From Chitinispirillaceae bacterium (GTDB lineage: Bacteria; Fibrobacterota; Chitinivibrionia; Chitinivibrionales; Chitinispirillaceae): a stretch of 10,044 nt of DNA. Positions 1 through 10,044 of the stretch are shown here, piece after piece. Both the position numbers and the translations under genes were made by a program. The stretch is taken from NCBI GenBank assembly GCA_016926315.1, contig JAFGOU010000123.1, forward strand, positions 1 through 10,044, given 5' to 3'. The notes beneath the pieces were generated by a model. It saw nothing but the letters and a program-made list of their open reading frames with translations. It had not been told where the DNA came from and searched no databases. Position 1 is the first letter of the stretch; every line of letters begins with the position of its first letter.

Positions 1-1
1 G

Positions 2-658
2 CTGATCGCCGAATTTCCCGGAAGCGACTACGTCCGCCAGGCGCGAAGGGATATGTCCTCCGCCGCCGGGATAAAGAGCCGCAAGGAATCCGCCGAAGAG
101 TCGTTCCGCGCCGCGGAAAAAACCTGGGTGGAAAAAAACGACGTTAAAACGTCGGTCACGATGTATTATGACCTCTACAGAAATTTCAGCGATCTCGATA
201 TCGCGCCAAAGAGCCTTTTTGTCGCCGCATGGCTGACCGACAATGAATTACAAAAGAAAAAAACCGCGAAGTCCCTCTACGAAAAGATCTGTGACCGCTA
301 TCCAAAATCGCTCTACTGCACCGACGAAGCAAAGCCCCGCTTGAAAACGGTCCTTGATACTCTCGAGGCGCTCCGGCAGCAGCGCAAGGCGCAGCAGGGC
401 GATACCGCAAAGAAAAAAAACGGCGCTCCGGCGGAAAAAAACGCCGCTAAAACGGATACGCCCGGCGACAGCGCCGCCTCGGCTCCGGCCGACGCTCTTC
501 TTGAAAATGACTCCGTACCGGACGATTCGGCAGGTCTGGTGCCGGAAGGGAAACCGCCAGCCCCCATGCCCGACACCGGCGACGCTTTTACCCGCAGACC
601 GGGGTACCGGGGATCCGTTCCGGAAGAGAAGCGTGACAGGAAAAACTCCCCGGAATAA
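2..658 (+). CDS. TPR-type protein, 3' end only (N-terminus outside window)
   Basis: The reading frame is open from the window edge to the TAA at 656-658, giving 218 residues of an incomplete protein. The ATG at 53 is internal: the frame runs on upstream without a stop and encodes the end of a TPR-like helix pair (EFPGSDYVRQAR), the pattern of TPR_6/YbgF/BamD-like repeats in envelope proteins. A second set of helices follows at in-window residues about 35-105, with a further repeat-like motif (YEKICDRYPKSLYC). From about residue 129 to the end the sequence is low-complexity, rich in Ala, Lys, Pro, Asp and Glu, and probably disordered. TPR proteins of this kind scaffold envelope complexes; no specific role can be read here. 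It ends 100 bp before the sigma factor gene, so it is probably a separate unit. I am confident it is coding and only moderately confident of the TPR assignment. Confidence 0.75.
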   Translation: MIAEFPGSDYVRQARRDMSSAAGIKSRKESAEESFRAAEKTWVEKNDVKTSVTMYYDLYRNFSDLDIAPKSLFVAAWLTDNELQKKKTAKSLYEKICDRYPKSLYCTDEAKPRLKTVLDTLEALRQQRKAQQGDTAKKKNGAPAEKNAAKTDTPGDSAASAPADALLENDSVPDDSAGLVPEGKPPAPMPDTGDAFTRRPGYRGSVPEEKRDRKNSPE

Positions 659-758
659 AACGAACGACCGGATTCACGAGCCCGTCGTATTTTCACACTG
701 TCCGATCCGGAGCGCTTTTTTCTCCTTTAAGCGTCTATACAGCAGTAAGAAAGGGACC

Positions 759-1283
759 ATGGCCGGTATCAACCGAGAGACCGAGCAGGAACTTGAATCG
801 CTCTACAAACGGTATGCGTCGCTCGTGCATGCGCGGTGTCGTTCGATCCTGCACTCCGACGACGAGGCCTGGGACGCAACGCAGGATATCTTCATGAAGC
901 TGTATGGTGCACTCCAGACGATCGAGAAAAAAGGGTCCATTTACTCATGGCTCCTCTCCGTGACCACCAATCACTGCATCTCCCTGCTGCGCAGGCGTCG
1001 TACCGTTGAATTTCATGAGGAGATCCACAGCGACTCTCAAGATGAAAGGGTTCCGTTCCAGGAAAGGCACCTTCTTCTGAAGGAGATGCTCAGCCGTTTT
1101 CTGATGCCCTGGGACCGCAAAACGCGCGAGGTGATCATGTATACCTATTTCGACGGTTACAAGCAGGATGAGGTCGCCGAACTGACAGGGCTCGGCGCAT
1201 CAACGGTGCGTAAATACCTGACGCGCTTCAAACGGCAGGCGGCCGTTTCAGGCCTGACTTTTGAGGAGGCTACCTATGGCTGA
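759..1283 (+). CDS. ECF-family RNA polymerase sigma factor (sigma-70 family)
   Basis: This 174-aa protein has the size and two-domain layout of group 4 (ECF) sigma factors. Region 2 spans about residues 11-80, with the typical DAxQDIFMKLY segment (39-49) and SWLLSVTTNHCISLLRRRR (63-81), which would bind core polymerase and the -10 element. Region 4 spans about 108-162, with a helix-turn-helix at 135-157 (YKQDEVAELTGLGASTVRKY) for -35 recognition. The frame is open further upstream, but I start at the ATG at 759: it is preceded by a purine-rich AGAAAGG stretch, and the upstream part is an out-of-frame reading of the previous gene. The stop lies 8 bp inside the next gene, so translation is probably coupled. 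The partner is the membrane anti-sigma factor immediately downstream. Its target promoters are unknown; autoregulation is usual for such pairs but is inference here. Confidence 0.93.
   Translation: MAGINRETEQELESLYKRYASLVHARCRSILHSDDEAWDATQDIFMKLYGALQTIEKKGSIYSWLLSVTTNHCISLLRRRRTVEFHEEIHSDSQDERVPFQERHLLLKEMLSRFLMPWDRKTREVIMYTYFDGYKQDEVAELTGLGASTVRKYLTRFKRQAAVSGLTFEEATYG
1263..1269 (+). promoter_or_regulatory. Strong Shine-Dalgarno that sets the anti-sigma start
   Basis: GAGGAGG lies inside the last codons of the sigma factor gene, 6 nt before the ATG at 1276. It fixes the anti-sigma start at 1276 rather than at the in-frame TTG at 1261, which would overlap the ribosome site itself. Confidence 0.8.
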
Positions 1284-2091
1284 ATCCGGATGCAGCCGCC
1301 TGGCAGTCGAGCGACTGGCAGCAGGCGAACTCACCGACAGCGACGCGGAAAAAATCGAAACCCATCTGCGCTCCTGTTCCTCCTGCGCCGCATACCGTAC
1401 GCGGCTTGAACAGACCCGGCAGGAGTTTCTGCGCATCCATCCGTTTACCGAGCTGAAGGCGGTCGGCGCAACACGGAAAAGCGGCGAACTCTGGTATGAA
1501 CGGCTGCTGGGCGCCATTACCGTTCCGGTGTTGCGGCCGGTGCTGATCCCGGTCTGCATCGCACTCCTTGCCGGTATTATGATACTCCCCTTCACCGGAA
1601 GAAGGGGGCTTATTGATACCGATTACCGGCAGGACATCCGGTATAAAGGAACGTCGCAGCCGCTGTCGTATATTTATAAACGGGGTGATCAGGTGCGCGA
1701 AAGCTCTCTGCACGATACGCTCAGGGCGGGAGACAAGGTCCAGATTTTCTACGACTCCCGTAAGGATCAGTTTTTGACGCTTTTCAGCGTTACGGACCGT
1801 GGCGGCGTCTCATTCTACCATCCCGATGCCCGCTCGCTTCTGTGCAGCATCCGTACCGGCGTGGGAAAGCGGCTCGCGTATCCGGTGAGCATTGAACTCG
1901 ATTCTACCGAAGGCAACGAATTGTTGGTCGGGCTCTTTTCCGAGAAACCGTTCGATACTGCAGGCATCAAACAATGGATCGCCGGGCTGGTGGAACCCGG
2001 AAAGGCGACCGCTCTCCTCGAGCAAACGATACAGCGGCGCCTGCCGCACAGGCAGAGTTCGGTTGCCACACTCATGCTGCGGAAGGAATAG
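1276..2091 (+). CDS. Transmembrane zinc-finger anti-sigma factor with DUF4384-like periplasmic domain
   Basis: This 271-aa protein has three parts. Residues 1-46 form an anti-sigma zinc finger of the zf-HC2 type: Cys6 plus H30-x3-C34-x2-C37 are the metal ligands, and this part would grip the sigma factor in the cytoplasm. One hydrophobic segment at about 88-106 (PVLIPVCIALLAGIMIL) is the membrane anchor. Residues about 125-235 look like the DUF4384 family: a ligand-like KRGDQV region, then LRAGDKVQIFYDS, then LFSVTDRGGVSFYHPD, ending with an ELLVGLFSEKPF segment. This domain should face the periplasm and is the likely sensor. The gene overlaps the sigma gene by 8 bp and precedes the caspase gene by 8 bp. 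The zf-HC2 and membrane assignments are solid; the DUF4384 match is from motif memory and its ligand is unknown. Confidence 0.88.
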   Translation: MAESGCSRLAVERLAAGELTDSDAEKIETHLRSCSSCAAYRTRLEQTRQEFLRIHPFTELKAVGATRKSGELWYERLLGAITVPVLRPVLIPVCIALLAGIMILPFTGRRGLIDTDYRQDIRYKGTSQPLSYIYKRGDQVRESSLHDTLRAGDKVQIFYDSRKDQFLTLFSVTDRGGVSFYHPDARSLLCSIRTGVGKRLAYPVSIELDSTEGNELLVGLFSEKPFDTAGIKQWIAGLVEPGKATALLEQTIQRRLPHRQSSVATLMLRKE

Positions 2092-2099
2092 CACCGCCA

Positions 2100-3632
2100 A
2101 TGAATCCCGTCCGCTTCCTGTGCTTCTGCTGCTTCCTGCTGCTCCCGGCGCTTCCGTTGTCCGCCGACCGCCATGCGCTCCTTGTCGGATGCAATAACGG
2201 CGGGCCCACGGTCGGGCCGCTGCGCTGGGCCGAAGCCGATGCGGAGCGGTTCGCGTCGGTCCTCCGCAGCCTGGGCGGATTTCGTCCGTCCGACGTCGTA
2301 ACCATGACCGGCCCCGACAGCGCGACTCTGGAACGAGAATTACGCAAAGTAAATTCTCTGCTGCGCTCCTCCAAAACGCCGGAAGCCGATCTGTTCCTGC
2401 TCTACTATTCCGGTCATGCCGACGGCACGGATGTTCTGCTTGGAAACAGCCGTTTTCCCCTTACAACGCTTCAGGAAACGCTCGATTCCCTGCCGGTGGG
2501 CATCAGGATCGGGATCTTTGACGCCTGTCACAGCGGCGCGGTGACGGCATACAAGGGCGGAACGCGCGCCGAACCTTTTTATCTCATCAATCCGCCCAGA
2601 ATCAAGGGACAGGTGATTATCGCCTCTGCAACCGCCAGCCAGCGCGCCCAGGAATCGGAATCGCTGAAGAGCTCCCTTTTTACCTTTTACTGGCTCAACG
2701 GTCTCCGCGGCAGTGCCGACCTTTCCGGCGATCGTCGCGTCACGATCGACGAGGCATACCGTTACGCCTACCGCAAAACCGTCGAAACCTCCACGCTGAC
2801 CGGTGGCGAGGCGCAGCACCCCATGTACCGGTTCACGATCCAGGGCCAGGGAGACATCATGCTCACCGACCTGACCGACAGGAGCAACGGCATACTGTTC
2901 GACCGTACCTGCGAAGGAACGTTCCTGATACTGAGCGACGTCTATACCGACATTTTTGCCGATTTCTCCAAGAAAAAAAACAGCGAGTGGTTCGTCGCGC
3001 TTGAACCGGGCAGCTATCGGGTCATCAATGCCCATGATCGCGAGGTCGGAATGCGGAACATCGAGATAGCCCGGACAGGCGGAACGATCAGGTTCAACCG
3101 CTCCATGCTCGCCCCGATCGAGCGGTCCCGGAACCGGATCAAGGGCCTCGATCAAGCGTCAGACGCCGTGATCAGCGCGCCGGCAACGCGACCGCTTTCG
3201 ACCTGGACCTGGGGCGCAGGAGGCGGCGCCATGAAAAACATCGGGACCTCCGCTGCGCCCATCCTGTTCAGCCTTTCCAACCTCTTCCTTATCAATGACC
3301 GGTGCGAACTGTTCGTCGACCTCCTCTTCCTGACCGGCGGCCTGAACGGGGGCGCGACCGTCGGCGCCGATCTGCTGACCAAGCCAGGGAAAAACCGGTG
3401 GTACGGCGGTCTGGGGGGAGGGTTGTTCCACTTTGACAAAGACGGGGGCATCGTCCCTGCCGTCACCGCGCATGCCGGTTTCGTGACCGATGTCGGCAAA
3501 CGGCTGCAGTTCGCGGTCCAGACGCCGTACCTGGCGTCCTTTGGCGCCGGCGGTATCGCCCACCGCCTCGGCCTGGAGATGAAGCTCCTGATCGCCGGAA
3601 AATACCGGGGGGTAACGGCTCTGGAGTATTGA
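2100..3632 (+). CDS. Secreted caspase-family (peptidase C14) protein with C-terminal beta-barrel-like domain
   Basis: This 510-aa protein begins with a signal peptide (residues 1-22, cleavage near LSA|D). The caspase-like fold covers about 23-245. The catalytic dyad is intact: His106 in YYSGHAD and Cys143 in FDACHSG, with the usual ASATASQRAQES segment after it. A second beta-rich domain follows at about 251-350 (GDIMLTDL onward, with LEPGSYRV), seen in other bacterial caspase-family proteins as I recall. The last part, about 370-510, is glycine-rich with alternating hydrophobic strands and resembles a small outer-membrane barrel. It matches the next gene's product closely (see findings). Cleavage specificity cannot be read directly; bacterial relatives (orthocaspases) usually cut after basic residues. 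The ATG at 2100 follows GGAAGGAA at 2081-2088, and only this start gives a signal peptide. The protein should act in the periplasm or at the outer membrane, unlike typical cytoplasmic bacterial caspases. Confidence 0.9.
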   Translation: MNPVRFLCFCCFLLLPALPLSADRHALLVGCNNGGPTVGPLRWAEADAERFASVLRSLGGFRPSDVVTMTGPDSATLERELRKVNSLLRSSKTPEADLFLLYYSGHADGTDVLLGNSRFPLTTLQETLDSLPVGIRIGIFDACHSGAVTAYKGGTRAEPFYLINPPRIKGQVIIASATASQRAQESESLKSSLFTFYWLNGLRGSADLSGDRRVTIDEAYRYAYRKTVETSTLTGGEAQHPMYRFTIQGQGDIMLTDLTDRSNGILFDRTCEGTFLILSDVYTDIFADFSKKKNSEWFVALEPGSYRVINAHDREVGMRNIEIARTGGTIRFNRSMLAPIERSRNRIKGLDQASDAVISAPATRPLSTWTWGAGGGAMKNIGTSAAPILFSLSNLFLINDRCELFVDLLFLTGGLNGGATVGADLLTKPGKNRWYGGLGGGLFHFDKDGGIVPAVTAHAGFVTDVGKRLQFAVQTPYLASFGAGGIAHRLGLEMKLLIAGKYRGVTALEY

Positions 3633-3720
3633 TGACCGCCATAGCGTATTTTCCCTGTCGGCGCGTCTATTACCATGAAACCGGAACCGGATCGAAATCT
3701 TTCCTGAAAGCGAGGATTGT

Positions 3721-4290
3721 ATGTTCAAAAAAATAACAGCCGTCTCGGCGGTTCTCGGCATGTGCCTCTCTACATGGGCAGCCGATCCTTCCGAAAAAGG
3801 GGTCCCGACCTCTCCGCTCACCATCTACAGCGGCGGGTTCGGCGTGGGCGCGTCCCATCCCCTGAACGATGAGCTGAAGGCGCAGCAGTCCAATTTTCTC
3901 AAGCTCACCCTTGCAAACACGGTTTTTTTTAAAGACAATGTCGCCGTGTTCATCGATGCCGACTGGTTCCTGCCCGGCAGCAACTTCGGGGCGGACCTCG
4001 GATTCGATTTCATGATCAGGAGCAGCGGTACCTTCAGGCCGTTTATCGGCGCGGGTATCGGCGCGCAGTATTTTGACAAAGGGAACGACTTCGGGGATGA
4101 CTTTGGCCCGTCCGGCACCGTACATCTCGGATTGGTGCTGGACCTCTCCGACCATGTCCAGATGCGCGTTCGCGTGCCGTACCATCTGGTGGGCAGCGAG
4201 ACGCCGGACCACCTGATCGGCCTTGAGGTGGGATTCCTGTTCTCGAACAAATTCCGGCGCGTGAAAAAACTTGATTATAACAAGCTGTAA
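3721..4290 (+). CDS. Small outer-membrane beta-barrel protein, paralogous to the caspase C-terminus
   Basis: This 189-aa protein has a Sec signal peptide (1-20, likely cleaved at TWA|AD). The rest is a run of short amphipathic beta strands rich in Gly and aromatic residues (for example FGVGASHP, FGADLGFDFM, FIGAGIGAQYF), which fits an eight-stranded-type outer-membrane barrel. It lacks a clear terminal Phe; a basic tail (KFRRVKKLDYNKL) follows the last strand. Its landmarks (GxNxGAxxGxD, FDK at 118-120, VPY at 152-154, GLE at 167-169, KFRRVxxLDY at 177-186) recur in the same order in residues 370-510 of the upstream caspase. The ATG follows a GCGAGGA sequence. It lies 88 bp after the caspase stop and 36 bp before the next gene, so it may share transcription with both. 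Its function is unknown: structural protein, anchor or caspase partner are all possible. Confidence 0.82.
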   Translation: MFKKITAVSAVLGMCLSTWAADPSEKGVPTSPLTIYSGGFGVGASHPLNDELKAQQSNFLKLTLANTVFFKDNVAVFIDADWFLPGSNFGADLGFDFMIRSSGTFRPFIGAGIGAQYFDKGNDFGDDFGPSGTVHLGLVLDLSDHVQMRVRVPYHLVGSETPDHLIGLEVGFLFSNKFRRVKKLDYNKL

Positions 4291-4326
4291 TCGATCAACA
4301 AAACCCATTTTGCCCTGGAGGCTGCT

Positions 4327-4905
4327 ATGAAAAAAATTCTTGCGCTCACGGTCATGCTCACGCTTGCGGCATCTGGCGCCTATGCCGGCAACACCGGCAA
4401 ATCCGGCGACAAAAACATCACCGTGATTTCGGCCGAATCCAAGGTGGACGGCAAGTCCGAGATCAGCGAAAAGCTGCTTGAAGAGTGCATCGTTTCGCTG
4501 CCAACCGTTGACGAACTCGAAGCGGAGGTCTCTTCAAGCTCGGGGTATGTCAAGGAGATCAACGGCGACCCGAACAAAAACGAATTCGTGAAGATGTTCT
4601 CGGCCGTCATCGAGATCAACTACATGCTCCACCAGCAGTCGCTCATGATCGTGACCACCTCCTCCGTGCAGGGCCAGGAGCCGGTCATGAAGGTGTTTGA
4701 GAAAAGCCTGGCGCGGTCCAAGCGGTTTGAATCCAACCCGACTGAAGGCGGACATTATGCCGGCCGGTCGAACCGCCAGTACTACTTCCCGTCCGCCGAG
4801 GCCGCGGTGCAGGACGTCAAGAGACGGGCCGCGATCTGGCTCAAGCAGCAGTCGGCAGTGGTGTGCAAGGGCCAGTCCTACAGCACGCCGAAAAAAGTCC
4901 AGTAA
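4327..4905 (+). CDS. Secreted protein of unknown function, between barrel and lpoB-like genes
   Basis: I do not recognise this 192-aa protein. It has a clear Sec signal peptide (residues 1-20, cleavage at AYA|GN) and no lipobox, so the mature form is probably soluble in the periplasm. The mature part has a Lys/Asp/Ser-rich start, a predicted helix around KLLEECIVSL (49-58), a central mixed region, and a C-terminal amphipathic helix (AAVQDVKRRAAIWLKQQ). Its two mature cysteines, Cys54 and Cys180, could form a disulfide; that is inference. The start is set by GGAGG at 4317-4321, 5 nt before the ATG. It sits 36 bp after the barrel gene and 87 bp before the LpoB-family gene, roughly where some gamma-proteobacterial lpoB loci carry another small envelope gene, but I see no similarity to YcfL. 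Confidence 0.8.
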   Translation: MKKILALTVMLTLAASGAYAGNTGKSGDKNITVISAESKVDGKSEISEKLLEECIVSLPTVDELEAEVSSSSGYVKEINGDPNKNEFVKMFSAVIEINYMLHQQSLMIVTTSSVQGQEPVMKVFEKSLARSKRFESNPTEGGHYAGRSNRQYYFPSAEAAVQDVKRRAAIWLKQQSAVVCKGQSYSTPKKVQ

Positions 4906-4992
4906 GGGACATTGCCGGGTATCCGGAAACAACGTATTTTAGCCTGGTACCGGCCAAGCCGTTTATCACCACTATTTATAGAGGAGGCGTAC

Positions 4993-5589
4993 ATGCGTTC
5001 CGTAACAAAAAAAGTGCTGTTCCTGGTCCTGCCCCTGCTCGTCATCGGGTGCTCGAATAAAGTCACCAGGGTCCAGAGCGATTCCACGATCGACCTTTCG
5101 GGCCGCTGGAACGACGCCGATTCGCGGCTCGTGTCCGAGCAGATGATCAATGACTGCCTCAACCAGCGATGGCTCTATAAATGGGAAACAGCGAACAAAC
5201 GGCCGACCGTAATCGTGGGCAAGGTCACGAATAAAAGCCACGAACATATAAGCACCGAGACCTTTGCCAAGGACATGGAACGCGCGCTCCTCAACTCCGG
5301 CAAGGTAACCTTCGTGGCCAACAAGACCGAACGGGAACAGCTCCGCGACGAAAAAGAAGACATGCAGGACAACGCTTCGGTTCAAACAGCCAAATCAATC
5401 GGCGAGGAGACCGGCGCCGACCTCATGATCATCGGCACGCTCAATTCCATCGTTGACCAGGAAGGCCGGGAGGCCGTGGTGTTTTACCAGGTCAATATGG
5501 AGCTGGTCGAAATCGAAAGCAACCAGAAGGTCTGGATCGGAGAGAAGAAGATCAAGAAATACGTTTCGCGGGCGACGAAGAAGTTTTAA
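4993..5589 (+). CDS. lpoB: LpoB-family outer-membrane lipoprotein, predicted penicillin-binding protein activator
   Basis: This 198-aa lipoprotein has a type II signal peptide with lipobox VIGC (Cys20 lipidated). Residues about 50-195 match the LpoB/COG3417 family, with its CsgG-N-like fold. Telling segments are PTVIVGKVTNKSHEHISTETF, split here as PTVIVGKV and NKSHEHISTETF, then LLNSGKVTFVANK, ETGADLMIIGTLNSIVD and the closing NQKVWIGEKKIKKYV. In Escherichia coli LpoB spans the periplasm from the outer membrane and stimulates PBP1b glycosyltransferase and transpeptidase activity. By analogy this protein would regulate a class A PBP, though none is encoded here. It lacks the long Pro-rich linker of the E. 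coli protein, so its reach through the peptidoglycan may differ. The ATG at 4993 follows an excellent GAGGAGG at 4981-4987; upstream in-frame codons have no such site and would spoil the signal peptide. The symbol denotes family membership, not proven orthology. Confidence 0.9.
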   Translation: MRSVTKKVLFLVLPLLVIGCSNKVTRVQSDSTIDLSGRWNDADSRLVSEQMINDCLNQRWLYKWETANKRPTVIVGKVTNKSHEHISTETFAKDMERALLNSGKVTFVANKTEREQLRDEKEDMQDNASVQTAKSIGEETGADLMIIGTLNSIVDQEGREAVVFYQVNMELVEIESNQKVWIGEKKIKKYVSRATKKF

Positions 5590-5622
5590 CTTTTGGCTTC
5601 GACCCGGGACGTTGCGGACGAT

Positions 5623-5700
5623 ACCCTGACGATGCTCGCCCATTGTCTGTCGAAGCGTCCCGCCATCAGTAAGGCGACCCTTCGACAGCTCAGGGTGACA
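5623..5700. repeat. REP-like interspersed element, short form
   Basis: The unit at 5678-5700 reads CCCTTCGAC, AGC, then TCAGGGTGACA, a word typical of widespread REP-like repeats. Upstream, ACCCTGA (5623-5629) and GTCGAAG (5649-5655) are exact reverse complements of TCAGGGT (5690-5696) and CTTCGAC (5680-5686), so the whole can fold as an imperfect hairpin. The same words recur in opposite orientation at 8681-8727. It lies in the 205-bp spacer between the LpoB-family and COG3014 genes and could affect transcript ends or stability there. Confidence 0.65.
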
Positions 5701-5794
5701 GCAGCATCCATCAGCAATCCGGCTTTTCTGGCGCCGATTTCGATCCTGACATTTCGAATACATAAAATCCGCCGACAGGGCTGATACATCTCCT

Positions 5795-7243
5795 ATGACC
5801 CGAACCCGCCTTCAGCAATTGCTACTCCCCCTGCTTGCGCTTCTCGCCTCATGCGCCGGCGGGTCGGCGCTCCGCTTTGAAAAGCTGGCCGGAGCCACGG
5901 CAAACCAGGAGTACCTTGCCGCAATCGCCACCATCAAAAAGAACGGCAAGAAACTCTACGGAAATACCAACCAGCTCCTCTACCATATGGACATCGGCAT
6001 GCTGTACCACTATGCCGCCATGTTCGATTCCAGCAACGCCTACCTGCTCAAGGCGGTCGACATCCACCGCGACCTGTTCGCCCGGTCAGTGACCAACGAA
6101 GCGGCCTCGCTCATGATAAACGACAACGTACGGCCCTACCGCGGCAAACCGTACGAACTCGTGCTGCTGCACCAGATCATCGCGCTCAATTTCCTGGCAG
6201 ACAACAATACCGAAGGCGCACTGGTCGAAGCGCGGCAGACCCAGCTTCTCTTAAACGAGCTCGAACGCAAGGACAAGCGGGGCGAAAAATACTCCACTGA
6301 CGGCATGTTCCACCTCCTCTCTTCCATTGCCTACGACGCCGCAGGCCAGAGTGACGACGCCATGATATCGCTGTTTCACGCGGTCAAGGCGTTCAAGGAG
6401 GGGCCGGTGCCGCTCCCCGGGCCGGTCAAGGACTACGCCTACCACCTGCTGCGGAAAAACGACCGCCCGGATGACATCACGCTGCTCGACATTGCCGCGG
6501 ATGCGCCGGAGGAAAGCATTCCCGGATTGCGCAATGGCGAGACCGAGATCATTCTCATAGGCTATGCGGGACGCGGCCCGGCGCTCGATGAAAACAACTG
6601 GTGGGGCACCTACATCAAGGACGGCCTGCTCATCATGAACTACAAAACCGCCAGTGGCGCAACCGAGACCATGCAGCTCCCGGCCCCTCCGCTCCCGGCC
6701 AAAGAGTACGAAAAGGCGGCAAAGGGAGAAAAGACCGCTTCAGGCACCACCTTTCACGTGAGTTTCTCCCTGCCCGCGCTAAAACCGCTCTCCTCACAGA
6801 CGGGCTTCTTTACCGTGAGCGGCCCGCAGCTCGCCGCACCGGTGACCGCCATAACCATCAACGATTACGATCTTCAGGCGCAGAAAAACCTCGACGACAC
6901 GCGCAACGCAACGCTCACCCGCACCGCTATTCGCGTCGTGCTCCGCACCATTGCCGCGCAAAAGGCGAAAAGCGGGATGCAGACCGAGAGCCCGATCGCC
7001 AACCTGCTCATCAATATCGGCACCGACGTGCTTGCCGACCAGCTCGAACGCGCGGACACCAGGAGCTGCTTCATGATCCCGAAAACCGTGCAGATCGCAA
7101 GGATACCGGTAAAACCGGGAACGTATTCGTTCGAGGCGTCAGCGCGCACTCGTTCAGGCAATGTGATCGGGAGCAAGATTTTTGAGAAGGTGAACGTAAA
7201 GCAGGGAGAGAAGAAGTTCCTGTTTTACTGTTCGTTAAAATAA
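5795..7243 (+). CDS. COG3014-family TPR lipoprotein
   Basis: This 482-aa protein has a type II signal peptide with lipobox LASC (Cys20). Residues about 30-225 are alpha-helical and TPR-like, including YHMDIGMLYHYAAMFDSSN, the diagnostic ASLMINDNVRPYRGKPYE, then ALNFLADNNTEGALVEARQ. The C-terminal half, about 240-480, is mixed beta and ends with RIPVKPGTYSFEA and a basic KQGEKKFLFY tail. The whole matches the uncharacterised COG3014 family, whose genes often neighbour lpoB in Vibrio-type genomes as I recall. It would sit on the periplasmic face of the outer membrane; its biochemical role is unknown. The ATG at 5795 has only a weak AGGG 14 nt upstream, but it is the only start that gives the lipoprotein signal. 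The 205-bp gap to the LpoB-family gene suggests its own promoter or processing; CTGACA and ATAAAAT-like stretches around 5746-5768 are candidates only. Confidence 0.88.
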   Translation: MTRTRLQQLLLPLLALLASCAGGSALRFEKLAGATANQEYLAAIATIKKNGKKLYGNTNQLLYHMDIGMLYHYAAMFDSSNAYLLKAVDIHRDLFARSVTNEAASLMINDNVRPYRGKPYELVLLHQIIALNFLADNNTEGALVEARQTQLLLNELERKDKRGEKYSTDGMFHLLSSIAYDAAGQSDDAMISLFHAVKAFKEGPVPLPGPVKDYAYHLLRKNDRPDDITLLDIAADAPEESIPGLRNGETEIILIGYAGRGPALDENNWWGTYIKDGLLIMNYKTASGATETMQLPAPPLPAKEYEKAAKGEKTASGTTFHVSFSLPALKPLSSQTGFFTVSGPQLAAPVTAITINDYDLQAQKNLDDTRNATLTRTAIRVVLRTIAAQKAKSGMQTESPIANLLINIGTDVLADQLERADTRSCFMIPKTVQIARIPVKPGTYSFEASARTRSGNVIGSKIFEKVNVKQGEKKFLFYCSLK

Positions 7244-7578
7244 ACTGCCTGATAAAAACGACGCATGAATGGCAACATCGCTTTTTTCCCCAAAAGAAGG
7301 AGAAAAAAATATTTGCATTCCGACTTGGAAACATGTATTTATAGAAGGTTTTTTTACGGGATACCTACCGTAAGGCGGTTGGGTGTTTTCGTTTTTGCTC
7401 TTGTTGCATATTTCACGTATGCAATAGGTAGGCAATTAAAAGGTATTGTGCAGCAATAAAACAATGCCTATATTTTTCCTGTTTTTTCATACTCACGTCT
7501 TGTACTTTTTAACACTTTTGACAGAATACAGACGTTAAGGGCGCTGGACGTTTAAACATCATTTTAAAGGGAGGTTGT
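7244..7578. other. AT-rich intergenic spacer with inverted repeats
   Basis: This 335-bp spacer is visibly richer in A and T than its neighbours. It holds a perfect 7-bp inverted repeat, TTGCATA (7404-7410) and TATGCAA (7418-7424), around a 7-nt loop, a candidate operator or hairpin. It also contains the possible terminator at 7429-7487. A TTGACA at 7518-7523 could be a -35 box for the downstream lipoprotein gene, but I find no convincing -10 at the usual spacing. A 64-codon open frame at 7265-7459 is treated in the findings. No RNA gene is recognised. Confidence 0.6.
7429..7487 (+). terminator. Possible weak intrinsic terminator after the COG3014 gene
   Basis: TAGGCA (7429-7434) pairs with TGCCTA (7465-7470), and within it TATTG (7444-7448) pairs with CAATA (7454-7458). 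The interrupted stem is followed by T5 at 7473-7477 and T6 at 7482-7487. The stem is AT-rich and bulged, so termination would be weak; it could instead be a regulatory hairpin. It lies 186 bp after the COG3014 stop. Confidence 0.35.
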
Positions 7579-8436
7579 ATGAAGAAGTTGCTTGCGCTTG
7601 TTTGTGCGGCGGGAATGGCAGGGCTTTGGAGCGGATGCGGACTCACGGATCCGACTGATGCGGAAATTACCGTTACCATCAACACCATTCCTGCGGTAAC
7701 GGCGAATAGCGGCTCGGTGAGTTTTACCGTCAAGATCGAATCAGACTCCGCAATTTCCGCTATGACCTATCAGGTCAAACAAGGCGGGACTGACAAAACA
7801 TCTTTATTTACGATCACCCCGCCCGCGGTCAATGACTATAATGGCAAGAAAAACGTCACGCTGAACTTCTCTCTTGCGGCAGGATCAGGCGCGAACGGTT
7901 CCTATGACTTCTACGTCAATGTCACGGCCGGCGACATCAACGATGACGATACCCGGGCGTTCACGGTGACGGGCGGCGGGACACCGGTGACCGAAAAAAC
8001 GGACATATCGCTTGGCGCGCAAAATGCGGCACCTCCGTCACTTCTTGACGCGGATAATATGACTACTCACAGCGTGACCATAACTGACGAAACTACCAGG
8101 GGAAGTATAGATGTCATCTTTGTTTATGCCACTGTCAGCGGTAATCAATTCCTTGCTTTCACCTCCCCATCAGTTGCGGCGGGCAGCCCCTATGATACGT
8201 GGACAAATAAAGCCGCTTCAGAATTCAAAAAGGTGACAGCCGACTATGCCACTATTACCACACAGGAACAAATTGATGCTCTTTGGGGCACTGAAGCGGG
8301 TGACACGCGCGTTCAAATTGCCCAGGGCGATGTGATCGTCATAAAGACGAGCGCGGGAGCCTATAAGCTCGTGCAGATCACGGCAATCAGCGGCACCGAT
8401 GGATCAGCGACCATGAGTATCAAGGGCAAGTATTAA
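7579..8436 (+). CDS. Probable lipoprotein with Ig-like beta domains, unknown function
   Basis: This 285-aa protein starts with a hydrophobic signal sequence ending in LWSGC (Cys20). Trp at -3 is unusual for a lipobox, so lipidation is probable but not certain. After the Cys, residues about 28-133 form an Ig-like or cadherin-like beta sandwich (ITVTINTIPAVTANSGSVSFTVKI, given here in two parts: ITVTINTIP and SGSVSFTVKI). A Gly/Thr/Pro linker at 134-143 leads to a second domain, about 144-285, opening with DISLGAQNA and carrying TTQEQIDALW and a closing ISGTDGSATMSIKGKY. I recall similar two-domain lipoproteins in Fibrobacterota-type genomes, which is a weak hint on the host. The start follows AAAGGGAGG at 7566-7574. 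It is flanked by an AT-rich spacer and a strong terminator, so it is probably monocistronic. It could be a surface or carbohydrate-associated protein; nothing in the sequence settles this. Confidence 0.85.
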   Translation: MKKLLALVCAAGMAGLWSGCGLTDPTDAEITVTINTIPAVTANSGSVSFTVKIESDSAISAMTYQVKQGGTDKTSLFTITPPAVNDYNGKKNVTLNFSLAAGSGANGSYDFYVNVTAGDINDDDTRAFTVTGGGTPVTEKTDISLGAQNAAPPSLLDADNMTTHSVTITDETTRGSIDVIFVYATVSGNQFLAFTSPSVAAGSPYDTWTNKAASEFKKVTADYATITTQEQIDALWGTEAGDTRVQIAQGDVIVIKTSAGAYKLVQITAISGTDGSATMSIKGKY

Positions 8437-8471
8437 TCTGTAGCGTCGGCAACAATGTTGACGAAAAAGGC

Positions 8472-8506
8472 AAAGGCGCCTCCCTGACGGGAGGCGCCTT
8501 TTGTTT
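8472..8506 (+). terminator. Strong Rho-independent terminator
   Basis: A perfect 13-bp stem (AAAGGCGCCTCCC at 8472-8484 with GGGAGGCGCCTTT at 8489-8501) closes a 4-nt loop, TGAC. A T-rich tail (TTTTGTTT) follows on the + strand. It lies 36 bp after the lipoprotein stop and ends that transcript. The A-run before the stem might give some termination in the reverse direction, but no minus-strand gene is seen nearby. Confidence 0.93.
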
Positions 8507-8599
8507 CCCCCGCTCACGCCGGCCATCCCTTCCCCTTAACAAACGATCTCCCGACGGGTCCAGACCGGTTCTCCGCCCGCCTTTTCCGCCAGAAACCAC

Positions 8600-8750
8600 A
8601 AGCCTGTCGAAGTACTCGGGAAGGAATTTTAATCCGTTGAATTCATTACGGAAGATTTCTCGCCCGGCCTGCCCTGAACGGTCACCCTGAGTACTTCGAC
8701 TACGCTCAGCACGGGCTTGTCGAAGGGTTATCGAAGGGCTCGAAATGACA
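8600..8750. repeat. REP-like interspersed element, long form
   Basis: GTCGAAGTACTC (8606-8617) is an exact 12-bp inverted repeat of GAGTACTTCGAC (8689-8700). The right half runs GTCACCCTGAG (8681-8691), CTTCGACTACGCTCAGC (8694-8710) and CTTGTCGAAGGG (8716-8727). TCGAAGGG then repeats 11 nt later at 8731-8738, and TCGAA once more at 8740-8744. The TCACCCTGAG and GTCGAAGGG words match the element at 5678-5700 in opposite orientation. Such repeats are scattered intergenically in many genomes and are often linked to RAYT (REP-associated) transposases; none is encoded in this window. Confidence 0.72.
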
Positions 8751-8929
8751 CCAGTTTTTTTCCATCCCGAACAGATGCCAACCAGTCGAAAATTATTCCC
8801 CTCGCCAAGGCAATCAAGTATATTATTTTCCATCACTGAGATAGCGTCTTCTTACCTGAAAAGGTATTGTCAGATGTTAAAAATAATCTCGTCATTCATC
8901 ACTCTAAATCGTCCAGAAAGGGGTCATCT

Positions 8930-10044
8930 ATGAAAGCTTTGTTACGCTTTTCATGTTTGATCGCAGTACTGGCGGCTCCGGCTGTTTTTGCCGCCAACAC
9001 CCTCAGCACCGGAGGGCATAACGGCGTTGTGCGCAGCCAATCCGCCGACGTGCTCGGCGTCGGAAACCTGCAGCTCGGAGGGGCCATGGAGTACAGCCAG
9101 GAGTGGCATTATATCCACTCCGTAACTCCTGCAGAAGAGCGTTATGGCAGCCCCCGGCTCGTATCCGGGGTACTGTATCTTGGTGTCGGCGTTGCTCCGA
9201 ATCTTGATATCGGGCTGAATTTCCCGATGTACTACGATAACCCGCAGTTCGGCAGCACCAGGCCCATGGGCATCGGCGACCTCGAGCTGTCGTTCAAACT
9301 GGCCGATTTCTGGTTGAATGAGGAAGAGGATCCGGTCACCCTTGCCTATTATCTCGCACTGCAGTTCCCCATCGGCAATAAGAATTACGGTTTTTTCCCG
9401 CGTCATGCCTATTACGGCAGTTACGGCAACTGGTCTTCGGGAAAGGTCATTGTCCATCCCATGGCTTTGGCCACCATCCACTTCGACCGCATGGAGGCGA
9501 ACGCGCCGCTGCGGCTGCATCTCAATTTTGGCGGAATAGCCAACGCGCCGGGGAGAAATGAAGCCTTGACCGCCTCGATGAGTCTCGAATACTTTCCAAC
9601 CGAGCAGTGGACCTTTTTCACGGAAATCAGCGCGGAAGAGCGGATCAGGACCATACGCAAGGAACACCCTTTTGCCGACCTTATCAATGATCCGGTTTTC
9701 ATCACCCCGGGGTTGAAGTTTACCATCCCGCAGTCGAATCTTACCCTGACCGTTGCGGGAGATATCGGTCTCTCAGAGTCAAAAGAAGAGTTTGCTCACC
9801 TCAACACGTCTGAAAACGGGCACACGATTCTGCACCAGGCGAATCTGCTGTACAACGCGTATTTCGGCCTTAACTGGCTGATTCCGTCGGGTCCCAAAGA
9901 CGCAGACGGCGACGGGATCGTTGACAAGGATGACGGTTGTCCCGACCAGGTCGAGGACATGGACGGCTATGAGGACACCGACGGATGCCCGGATTTCGAC
10001 AATGACGGCGATGGCATTCCCGACTCGCTCGACAAGTGCCCGAA
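8930..10044 (+). CDS. Outer-membrane protein with thrombospondin type 3 repeats, 5' part (cut at window end)
   Basis: The frame is open from the ATG at 8930 to the window edge, 371 complete codons without a stop. A Sec signal peptide occupies residues 1-21 (VFA|AN). Residues about 22-320 are beta-rich with strands such as LQLGGAMEYSQ, LYLGVGVAPNLDIGLNFP and LRLHLNFGGIA, which fits an outer-membrane barrel or transporter-like fold. From residue 324 begin calcium-binding thrombospondin type 3 repeats (DADGDGIVDKDDGCPD, then DNDGDGIPDSLDKCP), with the usual Asp ladders and paired Cys-Pro motifs. In this architecture an OmpA-like peptidoglycan-binding domain commonly follows; that part lies beyond the window and is inference. 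The start follows AAAGGGG at 8917-8923 with good spacing. The gene is separated from the lipoprotein gene by a strong terminator and so should have its own promoter. Confidence 0.87.
   Translation, partial: MKALLRFSCLIAVLAAPAVFAANTLSTGGHNGVVRSQSADVLGVGNLQLGGAMEYSQEWHYIHSVTPAEERYGSPRLVSGVLYLGVGVAPNLDIGLNFPMYYDNPQFGSTRPMGIGDLELSFKLADFWLNEEEDPVTLAYYLALQFPIGNKNYGFFPRHAYYGSYGNWSSGKVIVHPMALATIHFDRMEANAPLRLHLNFGGIANAPGRNEALTASMSLEYFPTEQWTFFTEISAEERIRTIRKEHPFADLINDPVFITPGLKFTIPQSNLTLTVAGDIGLSESKEEFAHLNTSENGHTILHQANLLYNAYFGLNWLIPSGPKDADGDGIVDKDDGCPDQVEDMDGYEDTDGCPDFDNDGDGIPDSLDKCP

Follow-up and report, generated by a model that had tools for sequence, protein, structure and literature searches.

An extracytoplasmic function sigma factor, a membrane anti-sigma factor and an exported caspase form a conserved cassette: a possible protease-operated envelope switch

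What could a caspase do in the envelope of a bacterium, encoded directly behind a sigma factor and a membrane anti-sigma factor? The genes in question lie at positions 759 to 3,632 of contig JAFGOU010000123.1 of a Chitinispirillaceae bacterium (Fibrobacterota; assembly GCA_016926315.1); the whole stretch analysed, positions 1 to 10,044 of the forward strand, is called the window. Known bacterial caspase relatives have roles mostly in cell death or defence. A sequence-only reading of the locus had described an operon of an extracytoplasmic function (ECF) sigma factor, an anti-sigma factor and an exported caspase, and had speculated that the periplasmic part of the anti-sigma factor is the substrate, giving feedback. 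We consider it moderately probable that the caspase acts as a site-1 protease specific for Arg or Lys, which detaches itself from its barrel, cuts the anti-sigma factor and so releases the sigma factor.

The three genes are co-directional and tightly packed, as first described: the sigma and anti-sigma genes overlap by 8 bp, and an 8-bp gap separates the anti-sigma and caspase genes. The features of the trio are as follows (pLDDT, predicted local distance difference test).

759..1283, + strand: ECF sigma factor gene (174 aa, regions 2 and 4; Pfam and NCBIfam matches)
1276..2091, + strand: membrane anti-sigma gene (271 aa; Pfam scan and AlphaFold2 model), with a zinc-finger domain (residues 8-54), a transmembrane helix (84-106) and a periplasmic DUF4384-like beta domain (130-271)
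2100..3632, + strand: gene of an exported metacaspase-like caspase with a predicted outer-membrane barrel (510 aa)
2100..2162, + strand: signal peptide region of the caspase (residues 1-21; from the sequence and a model helix at 3-17)
2169..2843, + strand: caspase domain (residues 24-248)
2415-2417 and 2526-2528, + strand: catalytic His106 and Cys143
3198..3623, + strand: 8-stranded beta-barrel (residues 367-508; AlphaFold2 strands within 369-499, blocks with pLDDT 93-98)

The sigma factor has regions 2 and 4 only and passes all curated cut-offs (Sigma70_r2 at 1.2e-13, Sigma70_r4_2 at 1.7e-8, TIGR02937 above its cut-off), as an ECF sigma factor does. Its neighbour matches zf-HC2 at 24.8 bits (cut-off 22.2), carries H30, C34 and C37 in the arrangement HxxxCxxC, and has one transmembrane helix, as found in membrane anti-sigma factors of the ZAS type; HxxxCxxC was found in 31 of 77 anti-sigmas across the related loci described below. 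DUF4384 scored 20.7 bits, below the Pfam cut-off of 27, and the family (PF14326) is present in many close relatives.

The nearest named relative of the caspase is a Chitinispirillaceae protein of 70% identity, and its Peptidase_C14 match scored 44.5 bits. The catalytic dyad that had been read from the window is real: His106 and Cys143 are invariant in 84 aligned full-length relatives and align with the metacaspase dyads. Asp47 and Asp141 are equally invariant in the 84 and align with Asp residues of metacaspase-1, whose counterparts presumably form the acidic S1 pocket for Arg or Lys. The dyad, these predicted S1 acids and the predicted fold are those of a metacaspase/orthocaspase (C14B), and we infer a preference for cleavage after Arg or Lys. 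The N-terminus is hydrophobic and, judged by eye, the signal peptide proposed earlier is plausible. The C-terminal part is divergent (mean identity of 16% across loci), and its model matched the barrels of OmpA, OmpX, NspA and OprF. Since an 8-stranded barrel is confidently predicted there, the caspase is probably anchored in the outer membrane.

Related loci were collected by scanning contigs with a caspase alignment of 46 sequences (A1), and the best 80 of 507 stretches were kept; the profiles for finding the sigma, anti-sigma and caspase genes were iterated on these same 80 loci and the window. Sigma, anti-sigma and caspase genes follow one another in this order on one strand in 74 of these 80 loci, which is beyond chance, and the trio is a conserved cassette. 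According to the record titles the loci come from Fibrobacterota, Spirochaetes, Acidobacteria, Myxococcota, other Deltaproteobacteria, Gemmatimonadetes, Eisenbacteria and one gammaproteobacterium, among others. Four of the six remaining loci (L034, L063, L068 and L075) lie near contig ends, their caspase domain being preceded by less than 1.4 kb; of the other two, L050 has a DUF4384 protein and no sigma gene, and L062 lacks both partners. Among 60 Fibrobacterota genomes, 51 had some match to profile A2, and in 48 the match to a caspase was strong (E of 1e-59 or better). Both sigma and anti-sigma were present in 29 of the 30 loci returned from this sample, the exception (L265) being a caspase that starts about 590 bases from a contig end, and the loop after the catalytic Cys carried [KR]G in all 30. 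The cassette is also frequent in Myxococcota; the sequence-only reading had suggested that it may exist in Myxococcota-like genomes. The operon-like, sigma-linked and exported caspase proposed from the window is thus supported by its recurrence in many phyla.

Two loci deserve separate mention. In L038 the cassette is on a contig titled as a Klebsiella pneumoniae metagenome-assembled genome, a name that is probably a binning or labelling error. At L070 (9932-13326) one sigma/anti-sigma pair is followed by two caspase genes in tandem, with a 4-bp overlap between them. The long caspase frames of L029, L032, L063, L077 and L080 were considered as natural fusions of the caspase to the periplasmic domain of the anti-sigma and rejected, the anti-sigma being a separate frame.

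Both the anti-sigma factor and the caspase carry short [K/R]-G motifs, and all three copies in the window fall in segments that AlphaFold2 predicts as disordered (pLDDT below 50).

1639..1650, + strand: R122-Y-K124-G125, predicted site-1 motif in the anti-sigma linker after the transmembrane helix (pLDDT <50 at residues 104-127)
2553..2558, + strand: K152-G153, predicted autoprocessing motif in the loop after the catalytic Cys of the caspase (pLDDT <50 at residues 145-168)
3135..3146, + strand: R346-I-K348-G349, predicted release site in the linker between beta-sandwich and barrel of the caspase (pLDDT <50 at residues 343-357)

The motifs were counted in the best 80 caspase loci plus the window (81 caspases and 77 aligned anti-sigmas). 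The loop motif is [KR]G in 81/81 (80 K, 1 R) and RxKG in 66; the linker motif before the barrel is [KR]G in 81/81 (44 R, 37 K) with variable flanks, and K348 and G349 are invariant in profile A2. Between the transmembrane helix and the folded periplasmic domain of the anti-sigma, KG was found in 72/77 and RxKG in 66/77; the five without KG are L077 (RG), L071 and L074 (MG), L050 (RS) and L044 (masked at the site). In shuffled segments the corresponding rates were 14% for the anti-sigma KG, 1% for the anti-sigma RxKG, 31% for the linker [KR]G and 23% for the loop KG. At each of the three places, the entropy of many flanking columns is around 3 bits or higher.

Because the aligner may force such residue pairs into register, a separate sample from Myxococcota, the phylum of Corallococcus, matters. 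DUF4384 proteins of 97 genomes were taken; 90 loci were read, eleven listed places being left out, and the 74 with a sigma gene next to the anti-sigma gene were counted, the others being dropped. Hand scoring placed L213 in the caspase group, L232 as KG and L207 as RG, and L220, L221, L237 and L196 as motif-less, their automatic label being missing or taken from elsewhere. Beside a caspase, 63 of 66 anti-sigmas carry [K/R]-G (60 KG, 3 RG), the exceptions having M at P1 (L220, L237) or S at P1′ (L221); without an adjacent caspase the motif is present in 3/8 and absent in 5/8. The association is significant (Fisher p 1.7e-4), with rows that share ancestry and a motif-less group mostly of one lineage (L165, L166, L168 and L172). 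These four loci and L196, with a sigma gene, a DUF4384 anti-sigma, no caspase detected and no KG, may represent a caspase-free offshoot.

Caspases were counted in the same sample. Of 67 found, 55 scoring at least 160 bits were counted and 12 divergent ones set apart. The 55 have K (54) or R (1) in the loop, followed by G in all, and retain the dyad and both Asp residues without exception; by eye the linker has [K/R]-G in 53 of them, L218 having KS and L170 being uncovered. At the aligned loop site the 12 divergent caspases show 10 K and 2 R, with G in 12/12; L181, L187, L200 and L203 look unlike the others, and KG is kept in altered loops, for example in L183 and L209.

Anti-sigmas of the zf-HC2 type that do not adjoin a caspase were then inspected in nine genomes, and the motif was found in 0/19 with a usable frame. 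These 19 remained from 30 loci after removal of 9 without a usable transmembrane frame and 2 trio members; the frames were chosen by a simple pattern, so that some may be wrong. The same genomes gave 27 caspase matches. All 16 in trios have the loop KG. Of the 11 outside trios, four (L122, L123, L127 and L140) lack a [KR]G at this place and two (L146 and L147) have RGG there; the other five (L121, L131, L137, L139 and L142) were left out of the count. Another, divergent type of caspase, which begins like a lipoprotein and adjoins an anti-sigma-like gene, is represented by L139 and L140, with a sigma gene seen in L139. The loop of L140 is without KG; in this type KG stands in the linker of the anti-sigma-like protein and in the N-terminal portion of the caspase itself.

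In locus L050 the membrane DUF4384 protein (8432-9136), beside the caspase, has lost both the cytoplasmic anti-sigma domain and RxKG; a tblastn search with 78 sigma factors over 17.9 kb gave zero matches, and the caspase retains both its motifs. The joint loss of sigma, anti-sigma domain and RxKG is what the cleavage model predicts, in a single case.

A predicted promoter stands before the whole operon, at 709..737 (+ strand): GGAGCG-N17-CGTCTA, 21 nt before the sigma ATG, which matches KGAGC-N18-CGTCTA and would be autoregulatory. In a close group formed by the window and the ten nearest loci (L001-L009 and L018), which we labelled Chitinispirillia, GAGC-N18-CGTC was found 5′ of the sigma gene in 9 of 11 loci, compared with 3 for the best of ten shuffles. 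Among all 72 loci with enough upstream DNA, GTAAC-N17-GTGTT was found upstream in 14 (null, 3). A search for TGAGC-N18-CGTCTA found 27 sites across 8 genomes, with none in G110; a reversed control yielded 6. Five of the 27 precede a sigma gene, three an orthologue of the barrel gene at 3721-4290 and one a relative of the lipoprotein at 7579-8436; others precede MMPL transporters and DUF6515-type, lipoprotein-like, DUF1573 and DUF3108 proteins. Behind a few sites lies a gene for a leucine-rich repeat protein or a 4Fe-4S protein, or a very short frame (L259, L263 and L264 are sites with frames that are non-envelope or very short); no downstream frame follows in L240 and L261, and the MMPL site of L238 is apparently within a gene. 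From the genes behind the predicted sites, the cassette looks self-regulated and largely directed at the envelope. The predicted promoter is common to DUF6515-type proteins (L251, L257 and L260) and an unnamed lipoprotein-like family (L256 and L262) of different genomes.

How might these parts work together? We envisage a self-contained signalling cassette from envelope to nucleoid, in which the sigma factor would be held by the zinc-finger anti-sigma spanning the inner membrane and the exported caspase would be docked on the outer membrane through its barrel. An envelope disturbance would activate the caspase, leading to self-processing of the activation loop at K152-G153. The caspase would then cut its own barrel linker at K348-G349 to become a soluble periplasmic protease, and the freed enzyme would cut the anti-sigma at R122-Y-K124-G125, 16-18 residues past the transmembrane helix (site-1 cleavage). 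Cutting the tether makes geometric sense, because a protease still held at the barrel by some 30 residues of linker would scarcely get to a site so close to the inner-membrane helix. An RseP-type M50 protease would remove the membrane stub, and the free sigma factor would transcribe its own operon and envelope genes. M50 homologues, the candidates for the site-2 protease, were found in 8/8 genomes and also in 14/14 control genomes, which is only compatible with regulated intramembrane proteolysis. The earlier suggestion that the anti-sigma periplasmic part is the substrate gains indirect support from the shared motifs; activation by site-1 cleavage is favoured over the simple feedback proposed with it.

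Several observations weigh against this model. Fold matches fail to tell metacaspases from Asp-specific caspases, and the predicted disorder may stem from the small size of the alignments (84 and 36 rows). A structural role is conceivable for the loop motif, and its P3 residue covaries weakly with that of the anti-sigma (p 0.077). P1 is M beside intact caspases in L071, L074, L220 and L237, and P1′ is S in L221. KG is kept in three DUF4384 anti-sigmas without an adjacent caspase (L155, L188 and L181; a gene beside L181 we take, from its look, to be IS66-like), and L200 and L203 carry RG in an uncertain register. RGG also stands in the loop of two caspases for which no partners were detected (L146 and L147); L062 retains its caspase motifs although both partners are absent, and L234 has an intact anti-sigma domain with its motif, yet no sigma gene was detected.

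The caspase could instead lie outside the switch, as a protease for envelope quality control or lysis that is made once another site-1 protease has freed the sigma factor; its KG motifs would then serve its own maturation only. ECF sigma factors often drive downstream target genes, the predicted regulon consists mostly of envelope proteins, and the promoter position suits such a role. We regard this as unlikely: the same motif stands in the anti-sigma linker, where it is absent from 5/8 without an adjoining caspase, and a mere target would hardly remain the third gene of the trio in 74/80 loci despite its C-terminal divergence. It is quite improbable that the anti-sigma periplasmic domain restrains the caspase, the RxKG linker being a pseudosubstrate or tether and the sigma factor being freed by binding and not by cutting. 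The conserved motif and the folded DUF4384 domain, a family that also adjoins non-trio caspases (L081/L123 and L084/L127), would fit restraint; against it, the linker around the motif is predicted to be disordered, as suits a cut site, and the two similar caspase motifs are easier to read as processing sites. We give little credence to [K/R]-G motifs that are structural, or cut by an unrelated trypsin-like or Lys-specific protease, with the caspase link reflecting shared ancestry only: the KG of the three caspase-less anti-sigmas and the apparent kinship of the motif-less ones (L196 resembling the other four) speak for it, and persistence of the motifs between variable flanks and in the altered loops of divergent caspases against it. 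A role in anti-phage defence was rejected, only the generic PADLOC caspase model matching, at 6e-5. Zero related loci were found in viral contigs with a single-sequence query, which reaches close relatives only, and a plasmid search gave no near match.

Downstream of the trio, two further features were noted.

3641..3669, + strand: weaker second promoter-like site before the outer-membrane protein gene (2 mismatches; alone not significant)
3721..4290, + strand: stand-alone barrel protein, a paralogue of the caspase barrel (30% identity, E 4e-17)

Orthologues of this outer-membrane protein gene carry exact promoter sites in three genomes, and the stand-alone barrel protein is a likely member of the regulon. 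Genes for the barrel protein, a small exported protein and LpoB are 3′ of the caspase in 9/10 nearest loci, and further away in L007. In the window they occupy, with a large lipoprotein, positions 3721-7243, and this set recurs behind the trio in most nearest loci. The recurrence of the set suggests a link to peptidoglycan synthase activation.

In the sigmaE-RseA-DegS-RseP pathway a membrane anti-sigma factor is released by two-step proteolysis, DegS being an inner-membrane PDZ serine protease. The window likewise has a membrane anti-sigma factor and a proposed two-step release, with M50 proteases in the genomes; its proposed site-1 protease would instead be an operon-encoded caspase anchored in the outer membrane. 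FecI-FecR-FecA combines a sigma factor, an inner-membrane anti-sigma factor and an outer-membrane barrel partner, the last a 22-stranded TonB-dependent transducer with an STN domain. The window has these three components as well; its barrel is predicted to have 8 strands and its partner itself carries the protease, in contrast to the Fec and Fox systems, and a Pfam scan of the ten window proteins found neither a TonB-dependent receptor nor an STN domain. For the similarly composed FoxI-FoxR-FoxA, the available text reports that the partner is cleaved and that the site-1 protease is still unidentified (PMC11637429); cleavage of the barrel partner is proposed for the window too.

The link between sigma factors and caspases has partly been known since 2012, and the setting is not as new as the sequence-only reading held; its recurrence and the export of the caspase stand. 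A sigma-70 gene was reported in the operons of 4/5 Myxococcus xanthus metacaspases, and further such operons in Anaeromyxobacter, Haliangium, Sorangium, Ralstonia and Fibrobacter (Asplund-Samuelsson et al. 2012, PMC3501461). These are very probably the same cassette. The passages of that paper on metacaspase operons name no beta-barrel, cleavage motif or mechanism, the available text does not use the term anti-sigma, and N-terminal helices, possibly signal peptides, are noted there for metacaspases generally. Some EACC2 caspase neighbourhoods contain an ECF sigma factor; as described in the part consulted, EACC1/EACC2 systems join caspases to constant EACC and variable C-terminal domains, unlike the window (PMC8195603), whose caspase matched the EACC1-associated model NF047832 at 61 bits (cut-off 140). 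For ECF54 with CHAT neighbours, a caspase-superfamily protease was proposed to control the ECF sigma factor; that proposal, in the portion available, concerns ECFs without an anti-sigma factor, in contrast to the window (PMC8999054). In open-access titles and abstract openings, a scope outside which most subscription journals fall, no proposal of a caspase as site-1 protease of an anti-sigma factor was found. The C-terminal beta-barrel, the [K/R]-G motifs and the conserved promoter are additions to the earlier description of the locus.

We lean, if only slightly, towards a widespread kind of signalling in which an ECF sigma switch has a dedicated site-1 protease, a caspase docked on the outer membrane through a barrel, and in which a single RxK|G-like code serves self-activation, barrel release and anti-sigma cleavage. 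The predicted cut sites are three short motifs, which makes the model directly testable, and the cassette occurs in Myxococcota, a phylum with genetically tractable members such as M. xanthus. If the model is true, a site-1 protease encoded together with its own target would be named, and exported prokaryotic caspases would gain a concrete function and substrate. Caspases would then have a new job: they would relay a signal for transcription through the envelope rather than cause cell death.

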